DNA of 42,994 bases from IMG/VR virus record IMGVR_UViG_3300037961_000423, positions 1 to 42,994 of that record, one strand, 5' to 3'. This DNA comes from a virus. The notes beneath the pieces were generated by a model. It was not told the DNA's origin, searched no databases, and saw only the letters and a program-made list of their open reading frames with translations. Both the position numbers and the translations under genes were made by a program. Within the stretch, counting starts at the first letter, position 1, and every line of letters starts with the position of its first letter. Below are positions 5,703 through 38,298 of this stretch, one piece after another.

Positions 5703-7764
5703 TACTTGTAAATCCTTGTTCACCCGGAATAGGTACTTGACCTATCCCTATGTTACCCCCACCAGAACCTGTTGGGTCTGCTACATTTGCTCCCGCTGGT
5801 GCTGCTTGCTGTTGCGCTGGGTCTAACGCAGGTGCTTGGAATTGTTTCATAAGCTCTGCCTGTAGTGCAGCTTCGCTCATGTTGTTTGTTACTTTATCTG
5901 GGTCTAAGTCCATAGACTTTGCAATCTCACGAATAATATACTGAAACTTAGCAAATGGAGCAAGAGCAGGATTGCTAGATACTTGCAAGAATTGCATTAG
6001 TCTCTGGCTACGAACTTCGTTAGCCATTAGACTTTCTGTTCCACGTGCTTTAACTTCTAAGTCACCTTTGATATCTGGGTCAAAGTCAAACTGCATATTA
6101 AAACGGAAAAACCCTTCACCAAGAGGACGCAATAAATAATCGTCTACATTCTTGATGACAGTTTTAATACTACCACTAGCAGCGTTCATGAGCATAGAAA
6201 TACCAGACGCTGTTCTACCTACACCCATTACACCTGTTTGACCATGTGCAAAGCTAGGCATACCTGTTGATTCATCTGCAAGCTGACGTGCCTTATCAAA
6301 CAACATCATATTCTCTTGTGATACATTTGGAAACTTTGTACCAAAGATAGCTTGACCCGGTGCGCCAGATTGTCTACGAAATACCTTGCCCGGATATATA
6401 GACATGTCCTGCCCCGGCACAAGATTTGTTTCATCTACCTCAATAAGTAGATTACCTGACAACACAGCGTTGTCTACAGCCATACGCATAAAACCATTCA
6501 TTAATGTTTGCGTATCATCCATGTTTTCTGCAATACCTACACCAAAGAAAGAATATGGATTTAATTCATAAGGTGCAGCAGCGTATGGTATCTTAGCTGG
6601 CTTAAATGGATTTAGAACCATGCGAATAAGTTTGTTATTACAAATCCACACATTTGCTTGTAGCTCATCAAAGTCTTTTAATTCATTTGGAATTTCTACG
6701 CCTTGTTCTTCTAGCATCTCGACATCAACCATGCCCCAATACTCAAGAACCTCAAAACGGTCTATGCCATGCTCTGGTGCATAGTCAGATAAATCATCTT
6801 CCCAATACTTCTTATCGTAGTTTTCGCCCATCTGAATACATTCGTCAATAACCTGACCACGGAAGTATGGACGCTTTTTTAAATTACGAAGTTGTGAACG
6901 AGACATCTTATGACGTTCAATTACAAACTGTGCTTCATCCATATTGTTTGCATCTGGGTCTGGATAAAAGTTCCAAACAGATACATGCTCCACTTGTGGC
7001 ACAGTTTTAAACAATGGGTCATAACTTCCGTCATCTGCCCAATTAGCATACTCCTTGTCCTTTGCAAATGGACCTTTCATAATGCCTGTGCCAAACAGAG
7101 CCATTTCAAATGAACTACTACGTAAGTTTTTATTTGCACCAGACTCTTCAAGTTGGTCGTGTATCTTCTTCTGCATTTTTTTAGCAGCAATCATTGCTGG
7201 ACTAAATTCAATTGCAGTAGGTGTTTTACCCGGACCTTCTTTTAGTTTATCTTGAACAGGTTGCAGTTTGTCTTCGAGTACACCCAATTTCTCAGTGAGA
7301 CTTTGAGATGTTGCACCCGGTGGCAAGTCTTGACCATCGCCCGGAAAACCATAAGGAGTCTCCATTTCTTGTAATTGTTCTGGTTGTTTTGGGTCGAAGT
7401 GTACATCTGCTACAACACCTTCAGGGAGTTCTGTAGGCTCAATAGAAAGAGGAAACTTATTATTAGCAAATAGAACATCAACGATTTGACCATACGCAGC
7501 AAGCGTTTTGGTTTTAGTAACTTTAATAAATACACGTGACTTCTCTGATTCTGTAAACTGTACATCTGGACCATACAGACCACGGTAGTTTCGATAAGCT
7601 CTTAACCAACGCTCTTCGTCCTGATACCTATAGTCTTCAGCACGTTTATATCGCTCCACAATAAATGGAATAATATTGGATACATCAACATCAAATTCTA
7701 CAGAGTCATCTGTATCCTCTAATGCAATAGCATCGTCTTCAATCATGATGTCATCTTCATCCAT
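5623..7764 (-). CDS. Portal protein
   Basis: A 713-residue protein immediately downstream of the large terminase, of the length and style of P22-type portal proteins: an acidic N-terminus, then VERYKRAEDYRYQDEERWLR, and a Gln/Ala/Pro-rich tail from about residue 640. The portal forms the dodecameric ring through which DNA is packaged and ejected and onto which the tail is built. The gene starts 11 nt after the terminase stop. The last 80 nt are shared with the next small gene. Identity rests on length, order and general family resemblance. Confidence 0.8.
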   Translation of the reverse strand: MDEDDIMIEDDAIALEDTDDSVEFDVDVSNIIPFIVERYKRAEDYRYQDEERWLRAYRNYRGLYGPDVQFTESEKSRVFIKVTKTKTLAAYGQIVDVLFANNKFPLSIEPTELPEGVVADVHFDPKQPEQLQEMETPYGFPGDGQDLPPGATSQSLTEKLGVLEDKLQPVQDKLKEGPGKTPTAIEFSPAMIAAKKMQKKIHDQLEESGANKNLRSSSFEMALFGTGIMKGPFAKDKEYANWADDGSYDPLFKTVPQVEHVSVWNFYPDPDANNMDEAQFVIERHKMSRSQLRNLKKRPYFRGQVIDECIQMGENYDKKYWEDDLSDYAPEHGIDRFEVLEYWGMVDVEMLEEQGVEIPNELKDFDELQANVWICNNKLIRMVLNPFKPAKIPYAAAPYELNPYSFFGVGIAENMDDTQTLMNGFMRMAVDNAVLSGNLLIEVDETNLVPGQDMSIYPGKVFRRQSGAPGQAIFGTKFPNVSQENMMLFDKARQLADESTGMPSFAHGQTGVMGVGRTASGISMLMNAASGSIKTVIKNVDDYLLRPLGEGFFRFNMQFDFDPDIKGDLEVKARGTESLMANEVRSQRLMQFLQVSSNPALAPFAKFQYIIREIAKSMDLDPDKVTNNMSEAALQAELMKQFQAPALDPAQQQAAPAGANVADPTGSGGGNIGIGQVPIPGEQGFTSNDGQQAANTQPPQADGGEQPPVGSLQ

Positions 7765-17431: not shown

Positions 17432-17647
17432 CTAAGTCTCGTTTGGTTCTTTCCATCCCTCTGCTCTCATGGCATCCTCTACATGCTTTAATGTAAATGA
17501 ACGCCCGTAGTGTGCTTCTACAGCATGTCGCACGTAAAAGACATCACTATGAGGAATATGTAAGCGGTCTAATGTATTAGTACGTATAGCTTCGTAGAAA
17601 GCGTCAAGCACATTATCTGTGTATAGTTTTACTGATTTTTTTGCCAT
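17432..17647 (-). CDS. First gene of the leftward operon (71 aa)
   Basis: The ATG at 17645-17647 (MAKKSVKLYTDNVLDAFYEA) is preferred over a TTG two codons upstream, although neither has a good ribosome binding site. The protein is a compact alpha domain with YYRH-like aromatic/His residues (SDVFYVRHAVEAHYGRSFTL). It is the first gene after the leftward promoter at 17807-17835, with a leader of about 150 nt. Not recognised; a regulatory role is possible from its position. Confidence 0.65.
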   Translation of the reverse strand: MAKKSVKLYTDNVLDAFYEAIRTNTLDRLHIPHSDVFYVRHAVEAHYGRSFTLKHVEDAMRAEGWKEPNET

Positions 17648-17683
17648 TGTCAAGACAATTTTTAAAATACGGATAGATATAGT

Positions 17684-17797
17684 ACATTTAAATGTTTATA
17701 GCAAGTGTTATTTATTTAAGATTAGATACATATAAGTGATACATTTAAGTGTATTTAACATCTTTATTTATAGTCACTTTAATGTTTCATTTAAATG
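17684..17797. repeat. Three CATTTAA(A/G)TG palindromes in the late leader
   Basis: ACATTTAAATGT (17684-17695, perfect palindrome), ATACATTTAAGTGTAT (17739-17754, one mismatch) and CATTTAAATG (17788-17797, perfect). The last lies at the expected transcription start of the leftward promoter and the others lie about 50 and 100 bp downstream. This is the arrangement of operators for a dimeric repressor, or of iterons. Confidence 0.6.
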
Positions 17798-17806
17798 TTA
17801 TACATA

Positions 17807-17835
17807 ATTGTACCACAAAATCTGTCAATTGTCAA
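17807..17835 (-). promoter_or_regulatory. Near-consensus sigma70 promoter of the leftward operon
   Basis: On the minus strand TTGACA (17830-17835) is followed after exactly 17 bp by TACAAT (17807-17812). A second TTGACA (17823-17828) lies inside the spacer. Transcription would begin near 17800 and read the small-protein, lysis and packaging genes. A host-like promoter is expected because no phage RNA polymerase gene is visible in the window. Confidence 0.75.
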
Positions 17836-17999
17836 GTGGGTCTAATAATTATTTATTTTTAGCTGTGTTATTTATGCAACACATGTGTGTATATATGACA
17901 GTTATGCCTGTGGTTAACACTCGAAAATCCTAATCTGTGTATTTCTGTGTATATACGTACGGTATAACGGGGGGTGGCAGTCGCATGGCGGGGTGTTTT

Positions 18000-18010
18000 C
18001 GGTCATGGGG
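18000..18010 (+). repeat. CGGTCATGGGG motif, copy 1
   Basis: This 11-bp motif occurs here and, in longer form, at 19994-20010 and 23513-23530. All three copies are on the plus strand and in non-coding gaps. This copy lies in a G-rich island with further G runs at 17969-17974 and 17990-17993. Confidence 0.6.
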
Positions 18011-18152
18011 TGTTCTATATCCGACAAAATAGACGAAAATAAGACAATCAAAACAAAACTAAATAGTCTTTGATAAAATAAATATAATAAAATCAATGCT
18101 TTATATCTATTTTATAACTGTTTATCTGTCAGTTAAAGAATATCTGTCTGTT

Positions 18153-18168
18153 TGTTTCACGTGAAACA
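18153..18168. promoter_or_regulatory. parS: parS-like site (ParB binding palindrome)
   Basis: TGTTTCACGTGAAACA is a perfect 16-bp palindrome identical to the bacterial chromosomal parS consensus, the loading site of the CTPase ParB. A chance match in 43 kb is very unlikely. No ParA or ParB homologue is visible in the window, so the site would use a host ParB or one encoded outside the window. It lies in the divergent control region, about 190 bp before the first early gene. Confidence 0.8.
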
Positions 18169-18358
18169 CAATAACGGGTTGTATCATTGGCGAAGCATAC
18201 CCCATAAAATATGTGTGACATATCTGCAACAGTATGGTAAATATATCACAATAAAAAAATGCAATAAAAAGTTATTTTTTTTTTATTCATCACTTGAATA
18301 AATAAAATCAATTCCTATATCAACCTTGTAAGTATTGAATTTAAGAAAGGCTAAAACG

Positions 18359-18685
18359 ATGGAAACTCTACTAAGCAAAATTGAATGTCATTTATTTAAT
18401 GACTGGAAAAAAAGACCATATGAAGAAACAACACCAAACGATAAAGCTTATGCATTTTTGGATAATTTATATGAAACTGCACGCGATGAAAAAAACGATA
18501 TTTATTTATCTGATATATATGTTCAACCTATTTCAGAATTTTCTGAATATGTAGACATAGAAGAAAAAGATATTTTAGAAGCAAAAAAACTAGAGGGTGA
18601 ATTAGAGCAAATTGTTGATGAACACTTTAATGAATTAAAAACTAAATATAATGTTTCATCAGAAAATGATTTATTTAAAAATTGA
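18359..18685 (+). CDS. First early protein, acidic (108 aa)
   Basis: The ATG at 18359 follows AAGAAAGG at good spacing. A TTG 24 nt upstream is in frame but lacks a site. The protein (METLLSKIECHLFNDWKKRP at the start) is helical and strongly acidic, a common trait of early phage proteins that mimic DNA or bind host enzymes. No family recognised. It is the first gene expressed rightward, so a host-takeover or regulatory role is plausible. Confidence 0.7.
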   Translation: METLLSKIECHLFNDWKKRPYEETTPNDKAYAFLDNLYETARDEKNDIYLSDIYVQPISEFSEYVDIEEKDILEAKKLEGELEQIVDEHFNELKTKYNVSSENDLFKN

Positions 18686-23557: not shown

Positions 23558-24463
23558 ATGCCACACTTTAAAATAAAAGACTTAGTGCAGGAATATTATA
23601 AGTCTAGTGATTACAATGTGTTAAGTGATAAAAGTAAAGTAGACTATAAAAACTTTATAAACGTCATGCTTACCACAAAAGTAGATAACAAAGAGCTTGG
23701 TGAACACTTAGCTAAACGATTTGCCGGGGCTAAAGCCAGACGAGCATACGAGCAATGGCTACTACGGGGTGTTCAGATGGCTAATCATATCTGTGCTGTA
23801 TCTCGTAAACTGTATTCTTTTGGTATGGAGATGGGATACAGTGAGACTAATCCATTCGCAACCTTTAAGAGAAAAACTGTAAAGCCAAGGAAGGTAGTGT
23901 GGGAGCGTGAGCAGATAGTAAAGTTTTTAGATGAGGCGTACTCTGACTTCAACACCAGAAACATTGGACTGATAGTTCAAATGTCTTATGAGTGGTGTCA
24001 GCGTATTGGGGACATGAGGACTCTTACATTTGACTGCCTTGATTTAAATAATCAGGTCTTAAACTTAGAACAGTCAAAGCGTGGGGCTACTGTTCATCTT
24101 CCTATATCAGATGGACTTACAGAAATGTTAAAAGAGCAGCAGAATGATTTTGACTTTCAAAAATATGTTGCGCCATTCCCAAGACCAAAGGCAGGTGAAT
24201 ATATGCCATACGAGCTTGTACAGCTTTCTATGGCTGCACGAGTTATCATGAGACGTATAGGACTACCGGAGAACTTACGGATAGCAGACCTGAGACGTAC
24301 AGGGACTACGGAGATGGTAGAGGCTGGTGTATCTATGGGTCAAATTATGTCTGTTACAGGACACTCAAATCCTAGTAGTGTAAAACCATACATGAAAAAT
24401 ACGTATACAAGTGCAGAAAGTGCATTGACGGCACGTAAAAATCATGTTACAAGCACATTATAA
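23558..24463 (+). CDS. int: Tyrosine recombinase/integrase with unusual active site
   Basis: A 301-residue protein: N-terminal core-binding domain (to about 110) and a catalytic domain with R149 (CQRIGDM), K174, R246 (ADLRRTGTTEM), H269 (TGHSNPSS) and the nucleophile Y278 nine residues later. The first His of the usual HxxR box II is replaced by Ala (A243). Many integrases still work with a different residue here, so activity is possible. It has its own AAAGGAG site and lies behind a terminator. No tRNA-like attachment site was found nearby. Confidence 0.85.
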   Translation: MPHFKIKDLVQEYYKSSDYNVLSDKSKVDYKNFINVMLTTKVDNKELGEHLAKRFAGAKARRAYEQWLLRGVQMANHICAVSRKLYSFGMEMGYSETNPFATFKRKTVKPRKVVWEREQIVKFLDEAYSDFNTRNIGLIVQMSYEWCQRIGDMRTLTFDCLDLNNQVLNLEQSKRGATVHLPISDGLTEMLKEQQNDFDFQKYVAPFPRPKAGEYMPYELVQLSMAARVIMRRIGLPENLRIADLRRTGTTEMVEAGVSMGQIMSVTGHSNPSSVKPYMKNTYTSAESALTARKNHVTSTL

Positions 24464-34817: not shown

Positions 34818-34832
34818 TTGCCCCCCTTTATT
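34802..34832. terminator. Bidirectional terminator between early and late units
   Basis: GGGGGC (34808-34813) pairs with GCCCCC (34820-34825) around a TTAATT loop, flanked by AAAGA on the left and TTTA on the right, so it would terminate both rightward early and leftward late transcripts. Two convergent genes end on either side (34817 and 34828). Confidence 0.75.
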
Positions 34833-37800
34833 CTATTGGATTTGGGTCTGTCTCTCTGACATCTTTTTCTATGGCACTTTGATATGACTTACCTAAGTTG
34901 TATAAGTCTCTGTAATTATAGCCAAACTCTGTTTCAGGTTCACCATATACTCTAATGTAATGTTCTTTTGCTTTTGTCTTATATACTGCTGGAAGTCTAT
35001 TGAACAACAATGCATCACGTGGACTAAACCCATATTTTTTAACAAGTATATCTGTAGACTTTTGTTTTCTTAAAGCACCTGTTACTATTTCTTTAAACTG
35101 ACGCAACTTTGTTTTTAACATTTTAGCTTGCAGTTGAGGGTTTTTGTTCTTTGCCTTATACTTGTCACTTTTAATATAAGGTATTACTTCATCTTCCATA
35201 AAGGTATCTAGCAATGTAGCATAGGTTTCATTATACTCAGGTATTTCAGTTCTACCACCGTAAACATCAGAGCGTCTTATACGAAGTCTATCTAATTCTT
35301 TTTCAAGAACATTCTTACGCTCTCTCTTTAACATACCAGTAGTCTGTCTGGTAATGGGTGTTATTCTTCTTTCTAAACCTTCTTTTGTTGCTGGCTTACG
35401 AGGTGGTGGTGCTTTATATTTTTCACCGGTAAATGGACTTGTAATTCCAACTTCCTCAAGCTTTTTTTCTATTGCAAAGTTACCGGGAATACGAGATAGA
35501 GATTTGTTTATAAACAAAGACATCATGTCTCTGCTTTCTAAATCTCTTGCAATTCTTTCATCATCAGGTGATAAAAACGTGTTGTATAAATCTTGTCCAA
35601 AGGTTATAGGTATGGTAAATGTGCTTACAGTATTAGCAGCCCACTCTGTTATTATTTTAGCACCTACTTCAAATTTTGTGTCGCCTGATTCACCAATTAT
35701 TTCCTCTGCCAATGCATCTAATGTGTACAATCCCATACCAGTTCTAAATTGAGTTCCTGTAATAGCCTGTAAAGCATCTGTAACTAAACTCTTATCACCT
35801 TTAAATATTTGAGGTTCACCTAATACATTTTGTCTATATGTTTTTGCTATTAAATCACCAAAAAAAAGAAACGGTGCTGCAGGAAAGAATGGACGTAAAT
35901 CAAAGGTTCTTCCATCAGGCGTTCTACCCTCATACCAATTTTCACCCCCAAAACCCAAATATCTGTAAGTAGCTGCACCCAGTAAGAATCCTGTTCCTAC
36001 AAGACCCTTTGCAGCATTTTCATACGATGTTATAGTTTCGTCACGTGACATGCCAACTAAAGGCTTATACACATTTAGTATTTCTTTTCTTGCAGCCCTT
36101 GAACCCTTTTCAAAAGGATTTAAAAAATATACAGGCGAATATTCGTAAGTGTGTCTAAGGGCATTTATAATAAATCTAGGAAATGGCATAATTCCAGTTC
36201 CAACAAAGGGAACTCTATGTATAGCATTAATAAGTGTTTTGCCTAGAATATCATCTGGTTGCTTCTGATAAGTAAAGTATAAAGCTTCATCTATTGCTTT
36301 GCTTAATGTCTCTTGACCACTCTTGCTGCCAAATACATCATTAAATCTGCCATTCTTAATTATCTCAACAAGATTAAAATCATCCTCAGTTGGGTTTCTT
36401 CCGAACTTTTTACCAAACTCTTCAAATAGTTCTCTGTCTTGCAAAACTTTTGAGTATTGCTCATTAAGATTTCTTTTTAAATTTCCTATCAAAGCTGCTC
36501 TTTTAAATATATTATCTGTAATAGTATTTAAAGCATTTAACTGACGAGACGCATTACCTAAACGTGTCATCTTATTAGGTACGGCTGATGTATCTCCAAT
36601 ATCTTGAAGCATCCTAAACAATCTAGTTGCTTCTTTTTGAAAACCCATAGCAAAAATGTTTTCTATAGCTACAGCTTCTTTGTGATTTGTTAATGCTCCA
36701 AATACCGCAAAGATATCATCTTGTCCAGCAGCAGTTATTTTTTTTCCTGTAGCCTTTCTAAGACCTACGTCAACTGCTCTGGTTATTGTGTCAAATCCAA
36801 CTCTAGCTGCACCAGAAACTACGTTACGCACTGTGGTTGCTGTCTGTGATGTCATAAAGGCAAGACGTGCAGCATCTACTTGTCTAGCTACACCTATTTC
36901 TTCTACATAAGCACGTACATCATTTTCATCTACGGCTTCTCTAGCACGTTTAGCCGCTTCTCTTACTTCTATATCAAAGCCAAATAAGTCAAAATCAGCT
37001 ATGCCGTCTAACGCCCTACTAAAGTTACCTAACTTTGCTTTTAAGTCTACTTTAGCCTGACCCATTTGCTGCAGAAGTCTGGCTGAATCAGAAACATCAG
37101 CCATGATAACATTAGCCAAGTCATCAAATGTAAGATTATATTTTACCAGAGTATCATCAAATACCTTGCCAACTTCTTTTGGCATATTTTTTTCATCAAG
37201 ACTTTTTAAAACACGATGTATACCTTCAGTTATTCTCTCACCTTTTTGAAGACCACCTTGTGTAGCTAGTATGTCTGTAAGTGCAGCAGTTACCTGCTTC
37301 ATCTTTTCTGGTTGTACGGCTAAACGTATAGGCGAATCTATACCAGATGTTTCTGCAGCCTCACCTAAAATTTCTTTACCTTTTGCAACAGCCTCTTCAT
37401 TTAGTCTGTTTAGGTTTTGTTCTACAATGTTAAAGCCATCAGTATTTTTTTGTTTTGATGCGTCAGCGGCACGATTAGCTTTATCTACACGCTTCTTAAT
37501 AGCTTCTTGAGATATAGTAACAAGGTCTTCTGTGTTTCTTTCAATATAGTCTACAGCTTTTTTCTTTATCAACACTCCGCCAGCAGCAACGGGTAAAGCA
37601 GTTGCTATTCCAACAGCCAATCCTGTTTGTGCAAGAGAATACTCATCCTGAACATCTGCTTCCATAAGTGCTTTTTGTGCGGATATATCACCAGCTAAAG
37701 CTGCAGTTCCTTCTATTGCAGCAGTAGTAGCTAATGACCTTACAGGTGTTTTAGTTGCTTCTGCTAAAGCCCTACCAATAGCAAGCTTCGCAGTTGTTTG

Positions 37801-38298
37801 ACCTATGATGCCAGCAGCTTTACCAGCACCCGGTAGCAGTATACCTGCATACGTAGATGGTGCTTGTGCAATACCTGCCGCATAATCAAGAAAAGCGGAT
37901 GGCGCACCCCCACTCTCGTAGAAAGCTGGAAGTGCATCAAACGCTTGATATAGTTTTCTATAATCTTCTAATTGTTCTTGTTTGCCATCTGTCTTGAGAC
38001 CACTTACGTAGCCCCAATCCCCAGCAGCAACCATTTCATTTACATTAAACTCACGGAAGTGTTCAATAGTCTCGTCAATAGCTTTTTCTGCAGTAGGATT
38101 GTCGTATCCTAAATGGTCTTTAGCAAACCTAACTGCTGCTTGTCTAAGTTCAGGAGACTCTTGGAATTTAGAGTAAGTGAAATCTTCTTCTATTACAGGC
38201 GCATCATCTTTTTTTACATTAGTATATAGATGATTAAATGAGCCAGTGCTAGGTTTTTTGGTATTTTCATTTGTATAGAGATGGTCAAAAGAACCCAT
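34828..38298 (-). CDS. Large internal virion/ejection protein (1156 aa)
   Basis: A very large helical protein. The N-terminus repeats GSFDHLYTN and GSFNHLYTN (residues 2-10 and 18-26). It has long amphipathic helices, hydrophobic patches (AAGIAQAPSTYAGILLPGAG; VAVGIATALPVAAGGVLI-like), and a C-terminal Lys/Arg-rich part. Size and position among tail genes fit an ejection protein, such as T7 gp16-like proteins, that leaves the head with DNA and helps it cross the envelope. No transglycosylase motif was recognised. The start overlaps the next gene (TAATG). Confidence 0.6.
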   Translation of the reverse strand: MGSFDHLYTNENTKKPSTGSFNHLYTNVKKDDAPVIEEDFTYSKFQESPELRQAAVRFAKDHLGYDNPTAEKAIDETIEHFREFNVNEMVAAGDWGYVSGLKTDGKQEQLEDYRKLYQAFDALPAFYESGGAPSAFLDYAAGIAQAPSTYAGILLPGAGKAAGIIGQTTAKLAIGRALAEATKTPVRSLATTAAIEGTAALAGDISAQKALMEADVQDEYSLAQTGLAVGIATALPVAAGGVLIKKKAVDYIERNTEDLVTISQEAIKKRVDKANRAADASKQKNTDGFNIVEQNLNRLNEEAVAKGKEILGEAAETSGIDSPIRLAVQPEKMKQVTAALTDILATQGGLQKGERITEGIHRVLKSLDEKNMPKEVGKVFDDTLVKYNLTFDDLANVIMADVSDSARLLQQMGQAKVDLKAKLGNFSRALDGIADFDLFGFDIEVREAAKRAREAVDENDVRAYVEEIGVARQVDAARLAFMTSQTATTVRNVVSGAARVGFDTITRAVDVGLRKATGKKITAAGQDDIFAVFGALTNHKEAVAIENIFAMGFQKEATRLFRMLQDIGDTSAVPNKMTRLGNASRQLNALNTITDNIFKRAALIGNLKRNLNEQYSKVLQDRELFEEFGKKFGRNPTEDDFNLVEIIKNGRFNDVFGSKSGQETLSKAIDEALYFTYQKQPDDILGKTLINAIHRVPFVGTGIMPFPRFIINALRHTYEYSPVYFLNPFEKGSRAARKEILNVYKPLVGMSRDETITSYENAAKGLVGTGFLLGAATYRYLGFGGENWYEGRTPDGRTFDLRPFFPAAPFLFFGDLIAKTYRQNVLGEPQIFKGDKSLVTDALQAITGTQFRTGMGLYTLDALAEEIIGESGDTKFEVGAKIITEWAANTVSTFTIPITFGQDLYNTFLSPDDERIARDLESRDMMSLFINKSLSRIPGNFAIEKKLEEVGITSPFTGEKYKAPPPRKPATKEGLERRITPITRQTTGMLKRERKNVLEKELDRLRIRRSDVYGGRTEIPEYNETYATLLDTFMEDEVIPYIKSDKYKAKNKNPQLQAKMLKTKLRQFKEIVTGALRKQKSTDILVKKYGFSPRDALLFNRLPAVYKTKAKEHYIRVYGEPETEFGYNYRDLYNLGKSYQSAIEKDVRETDPNPIE

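Follow-up and report, generated by a model that had tools for sequence, protein, structure and literature searches.

Genome features at the locus

The sequence analysed here (the window) is the whole 42,994-nucleotide stretch from an IMG/VR virus record and belongs to a marine bacteriophage. Its DNA polymerase shares 70 % amino acid identity with that of HMO-2011 over the full length, and the integrase, helicase, RNR, terminase and gene order of the window are also of the HMO-2011 type. The placement in the HMO-2011 group that a first-pass annotation had proposed is therefore supported by the polymerase, the gene order, the integrase and the helicase. The features around the site under study are listed in Table 1.

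Table 1 Coordinates of the parS site and associated features in the window
Feature	Position	Strand	Remarks
parS	18153..18168	.	exact match, palindrome, same place in diverged relatives
Divergent intergenic control region	17654..18359	.	0.7 kb, AT-rich, encloses parS
HMO-2011 gp71-like small protein	17432..17653	-	opens the leftward (lysis/structural) unit
First rightward (early) ORF	18335..18685	+	ATG at 18360; from the ORF list
Element common to relatives	17895..17957	.	GACAGTTATGCCTGTGGTTAACAC...TAATCTGTGTATTTCTGTGTATATA / GACAGTTATGCCTGTGGTTAACAC...CTAATCTGTGTATTTCTGTGTATATA; ~200-250 bp from parS
Tyrosine integrase	23558..24463	+	PHROG integrase families, E 2.9e-30

When the window was scanned for motifs, the perfect 16-bp parS palindrome TGTTTCACGTGAAACA was found with a 16/16 match. 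It has the form of a chromosomal-type parS (16-bp palindrome TGTTTCACGTGAAACA, core GTTTCACGTGAAAC), and its earlier identification with the chromosomal parS consensus is thus exact. The site is intergenic, no ORF of at least 50 aa covers it, and no second match with three or fewer mismatches occurs within the 42,994-nt window. The expected number of exact copies per window is 1.6e-5 from base composition and 1.7e-5 from a first-order Markov model, which agrees with the chance of about one in 100,000 first given for this match. Two perfect 16-bp palindromes exist in the window in all, parS being one of these; the other, TTTGTTTATAAACAAA (35503-35518), lies within a large leftward ORF (34828-38298). 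A lone copy in the window is weak evidence because any of many motifs could catch a reader's eye, and the case for a parS here is built on comparative data.

The GC skew switches sign at about 17-18 kb and the control region lies near the cumulative GC-skew minimum, a pattern for which the change in transcription direction may account as well as an origin. The gp71-like protein shares about 46-80 % identity with its homologues in HMO-2011, CRP-1, CRP-345 and the relatives L097 and G004, and its gene was used as the landmark for locating the control regions of relatives. Neither this protein nor the early ORF matched a Pfam family. The common element could be aligned across window-type control regions, and GGTTAACA is present in nearly every relative; we consider the element a candidate core promoter or replication origin. 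A promoter scan of the window's control region gave fewer matches than were found in shuffled sequence.

Other repeats were also noted in these regions. Between 17683 and 17805, upstream of the gp71-like gene, ACATTTAAATGT / TACATTTAAGTGTA motifs are repeated and look like binding sites of a phage regulator, either operators or a set of iterons. The palindromes TCACTTAAGTGA, AAGTGATATCACTT and TAAGTGATCACTTA of relatives resemble them. Palindromes of the TGTGATCACA type are found in the control regions of L097 (~6600-6740), CRP-1 and CRP-345.

A ParB_N (PF02195) profile search of the window returned no domain at E <= 10, and tblastn found no ParA in it; the first-pass statement that the window shows no ParA/ParB gene stands on both counts. 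Linked parA and parB genes, the mark of a self-contained ParABS, are found neither in the window nor in the parS-carrying relatives searched for them, and the system of the window is not a ParABS because parA and parB are missing. No tRNA gene, a possible hint of an att site, was found in the window. The parS neighbourhood gave nothing but weak, uninformative blastn matches to plasmids.

The palindrome in close and diverged relatives

A contig 99.7 % identical to the window over 17 kb shares its palindrome, which is no independent evidence because the two belong to the same species. At up to two mismatches, parS is absent from HMO-2011, CRP-1, CRP-2, CRP-3, CRP-207, CRP-212, CRP-235, CRP-345, CRP-738 and HTVC033P; CRP-603 has a single parS-like site with two mismatches (38.8 kb), and the exact palindrome was found in no cultured isolate of the group examined. 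When 80 loci were collected with a gp71-like protein of the window's kind, parS was present in the 99.7 %-identical contig alone. In the gp71 tree, which is poorly resolved as the protein is short, the window is the sole parS carrier among the 48 rows of its half, the other determinable members being without the site. parS is thus dispensable for the group, as it is missing from HMO-2011, the CRP phages, HTVC033P and the window's half of the tree.

Different results were obtained for diverged lineages. Among the 120 IMG/VR stretches with parS that were listed, two (L006 and L097) are of the HMO-2011 type, with terminases 75-77 % identical to that of the window, and both carry the exact palindrome in the equivalent control region. 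A gp71-like query of the L006/L097 type then yielded 80 loci; 12 of these show an exact parS upstream of the gp71-like gene, at a distance of 281-911 bp. An exact control-region parS occurs in at least five flank contexts (window/L204; L097; L349-L354; L384/L387/L414; L427), while the 60 bp on either side of it are 17-38 % identical between lineages, which is the level of unrelated sequence. Between L384 and L414, with gp71 proteins identical at 81 of 84 positions, the adjoining DNA is scrambled, but all bases of parS are kept (16/16). In 695 kb of L006/L097-type relatives, parS gave 19 matches at up to one mismatch and six scrambled palindromes gave none. At least four changes of state are needed to place parS on the gp71 tree, at least two of them forced by starred branches, and the history of the site in the group appears to be one of repeated gain, or of old presence with many losses.

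The first-pass annotation had held that absence of the palindrome from close relatives would count against its reading. The closest relatives do lack the site, which is therefore quickly gained or lost, yet diverged lineages of the HMO-2011 type carry it in the equivalent position and it is no one-off. A passenger origin was the reading first drawn from the absence in the nearest relatives, and was dropped once L006 and L097 were found among the pattern matches.

Integrase homologues were detected in all long contigs tested, and the integrase is no discriminator because members with and without parS carry it alike. A hunt for prophages by integrase in genome contigs gave five loci, all of the HMO-2011 type in MAG bins, and no integration site. 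These integrase-bearing contigs (L344-L348) were binned in MAGs named Rhodobiaceae, Flavobacteriales and Neomarinimicrobiota; the Flavobacteriales and Neomarinimicrobiota bins are probably binning errors.

Relatives with several sites

The relative G060 has a genome of 57,846 bp and is probably complete because an identical 112-bp repeat is found at both ends. It contains three exact parS sites, located in the control region (10394), in the 5' part of the terminase gene (17064) and in a convergent intergenic region (48059), where the site adjoins a terminator-like hairpin. The expected number in this genome is 2e-5, and the Poisson probability of three exact sites is about 1e-15. In a second relative, G004, two exact sites are separated by 1.3 kb, and a further site, in the terminase gene, has the exact 14-bp core. 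No ParB_N domain was found at E <= 1 in G060, nor in any of the 15 HMO-2011-type records with parS (window included). The tblastn search for ParA covered those parS-carrying records for which all or most of the sequence was available, and in addition to the window it found none in G060, L433, L434 and the G004 piece.

At 9589 in L343, at 17064 in G060 and at 8762 in L434, a parS or its 14-bp core lies where the gene of the large terminase subunit codes for the N-terminal region, and there it encodes VSRET. The site encodes this peptide in both the G060 and G004 terminases and in the host rsmG gene (L429).

parS in IMG/VR viral contigs

The exact 16-mer is present in at least about 2,400 IMG/VR viral stretches, a lower bound derived from a flank-restricted form of parS that makes up 6 of the 120 stretches of the first sample and by itself occurs in at least 120 stretches, assuming the first 120 to be a fair sample. 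Scrambled control palindromes of the same composition were found in three contigs and one contig, respectively. The 120 listed stretches span 27-72 % G+C, and in 17 of them the exact site is present two to five times. Genes near these multi-copy sites include those for terminase, portal and a phi29-type tail protein, indicating that the sampled carriers are phages. The site falls inside ORFs in 46 % of cases, compared with 85 % for random positions. ParA was found in none of 50 carriers and ParB in two of 50; of the 44 carriers longer than 30 kb, seven have ParB. IMG/VR contigs are mostly fragments, so that a missing ParB is conclusive only in the long ones. Host contamination was considered as a source of these stretches and was ruled out, as no host parA, rsmG or gidA was present in those sampled.

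Three to five exact parS sites within about 1 kb were seen in L019 (2657-3429), L046 (10535-11447) and L055 (240-946), where phage terminase or portal genes are present. L322 and L325 (IMGVR 3300037423_000235) show many exact TGTTACACGTGTAACA palindromes on a viral contig, and these are a possible variant partition site.

These data bear on two rival readings. The palindrome might be an operator bound by a regulator of the phage whose recognition sequence is the same by coincidence, and operators are typically found where transcription units diverge, as here. However, the site is identical to the universal parS at 16 of 16 positions, it recurs in viral contigs of 27-72 % G+C, and scrambled palindromes of like composition are nearly absent. 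In G060, copies also lie in terminase coding sequence and in a convergent region, and most relatives with the same neighbouring genes are without the palindrome. We regard an operator of this kind as very improbable.

Of all explanations considered, the least credible is that the palindrome arose by chance or came along, unselected, as a passenger from the origin region of a host. This is in line with the window's own clade, where the window and the near-identical contig are the only carriers, but not with the expected counts given above for the window and for the three sites of G060, nor with the fact that several lineages carry the site at the same place amid random flanks. The viral stretches with parS also show no trace of host parA, rsmG or gidA.

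Probable binding of host ParB

The cultured members of the group infect SAR116, Roseobacter and SAR11 hosts (PMC9038755). The exact 16-mer was found in 134 of 190 alphaproteobacterial genomes, mostly in one to three copies; in the alphaproteobacterial G053 it lies within rsmG and adjoins parA. The match to host parS was judged at the level of the class (Alphaproteobacteria). When ParB from Hyphomonas neptunium, an alphaproteobacterium, was studied by EMSA, the oligonucleotide that served as wild-type parS was the exact 16-mer (PMC6650430), and parS specificity is conserved among 17 ParBs (PMC7383237). Because of the frequency in these genomes, the H. neptunium EMSA and the shared specificity of the 17 ParBs, it is very likely that host ParB binds the phage site. 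In an engineered lambda-parS, ParB is able to load on infecting and replicating phage DNA, and the infection is not stopped (PMC13190303).

Bound ParB could act as a silencer or switch, if its loading represses a phage promoter in the control region and so tunes the early/late or the lysis/lysogeny choice. In all lineages parS is found in the divergent control region, and in L349, L353 and L384/G060 a sigma-70-like promoter facing the late unit stops 6-30 nt short of it. Repression by ParB near parS has been published (PMC5521831), as has repression involving KorB (PMC11790492). No comparable parS-adjacent promoter was seen in the window, L097, L414 or L427, however, and the spacing varies. 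Moreover, the G060 sites in the terminase gene and beside a convergent terminator are places where silencing of an early promoter is not an obvious aim. Silencing is possible as the benefit of the site, though unlikely.

The multiplying phage might instead use parS as a decoy, drawing ParB away from the host and so disturbing the segregation of its chromosome or its division. Clusters of orphan sites, which in some phage stretches number as many as five exact copies, would suit such a role, and phage replication would amplify the sites. But the single site of the window could sequester little ParB, and there would presumably be little gain for a phage that is soon to lyse the cell. We take a decoy to be improbable. 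The estimates for silencing and decoy are shares of the question of benefit, and both overlap with binding by host ParB.

Discussion

We propose that the palindrome is a functional orphan parS that uses the chromosomal ParB of the host, with hitchhiking on the host ParABS as the most likely benefit (probability roughly 0.8). That selection keeps the site and that it recruits host ParB is, taken alone, a highly probable statement. Capture of host ParB by a phage without parAB, as the first-pass annotation had suggested, is strongly supported by the recurrence of the site, the three copies of G060 and the over-representation in viral contigs, and is weakened by the closest relatives, which do not have the site.

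Judging from sequence identity, recurrence and the literature, the first step would with high probability be binding of the phage parS by host chromosomal ParB and its CTP-dependent loading. Loaded ParB would slide over the phage control region and tie the phage DNA to the ParA/SMC machinery of the host. The benefit would then be that phage genomes are positioned and shared out alongside the host origin region. The DNA to profit may be entering, replicating or not yet integrated, or an extrachromosomal prophage. Among the benefits we favour hitchhiking first, because the G060 sites are spread over the genome and have no fixed promoter spacing; silencing is placed second because of the promoter-like sequence near parS in L349, L353 and L384/G060, and decoy third. 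Two further points count against the orphan-parS reading. The window has a single site, and CRP-3, the only isolate for which lysogeny has been demonstrated, inserts into tRNA-Met (PMC6918029), which needs no partition site.

The closest known system is SGI1, whose parS-like sites hijack the ParABS of IncC plasmids for its own stability (PMC10954446). Both are mobile elements without parAB that carry the parS of another replicon. SGI1, however, is an integrative mobilizable element that mimics a plasmid parS, whereas here a phage carries the parS common to bacterial chromosomes in general, for which ParB binding is predicted. A hijacker of the SGI1 kind has no parB and holds the parS of a co-resident replicon under selection, and the recurrence in random flanks and the three-site G060 genome correspond to this. 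Chromosomal ParABS of Alphaproteobacteria (ParB/Spo0J family) has the identical 16-mer, but the phage has no ParA or ParB. Mycobacteriophage RedRock, an example of an extrachromosomal prophage with a self-contained ParABS, encodes its own ParA and ParB, has no integrase, and its partition site consists of repeats of an 8-bp motif (PMC7157519). Both phage DNAs have a partition-type site, while the window encodes an integrase but not ParAB, and its site is of the chromosomal type. HMO-2011, CRP-1, CRP-2, CRP-3 and HTVC033P share the gene order, replication genes and integrase of the window without its parS. A search of openly available journal papers found none on natural phages with an orphan chromosomal parS, so that priority is not assured.

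ParB is widespread, and most bacteria that have it share one 16-bp parS. A phage with parS would have a handle on the origin-segregation machinery of its host and spend no coding capacity on it. On balance we lean slightly toward a wider claim, that phages widely and repeatedly acquire perfect orphan chromosomal parS sites, which selection keeps in control and intergenic regions for positioning or partitioning through host ParB-CTP (ParA/SMC). If true, this would link phage biology to ParB-CTP clamps and SMC loading and would offer an account of how low-copy phage DNA is positioned. It would also predict fitness effects of parS-carrying prophages through ectopic ParB/SMC loading, and the parS sites of thousands of viral contigs would stand for a general interface between phage and host that has as yet no name.
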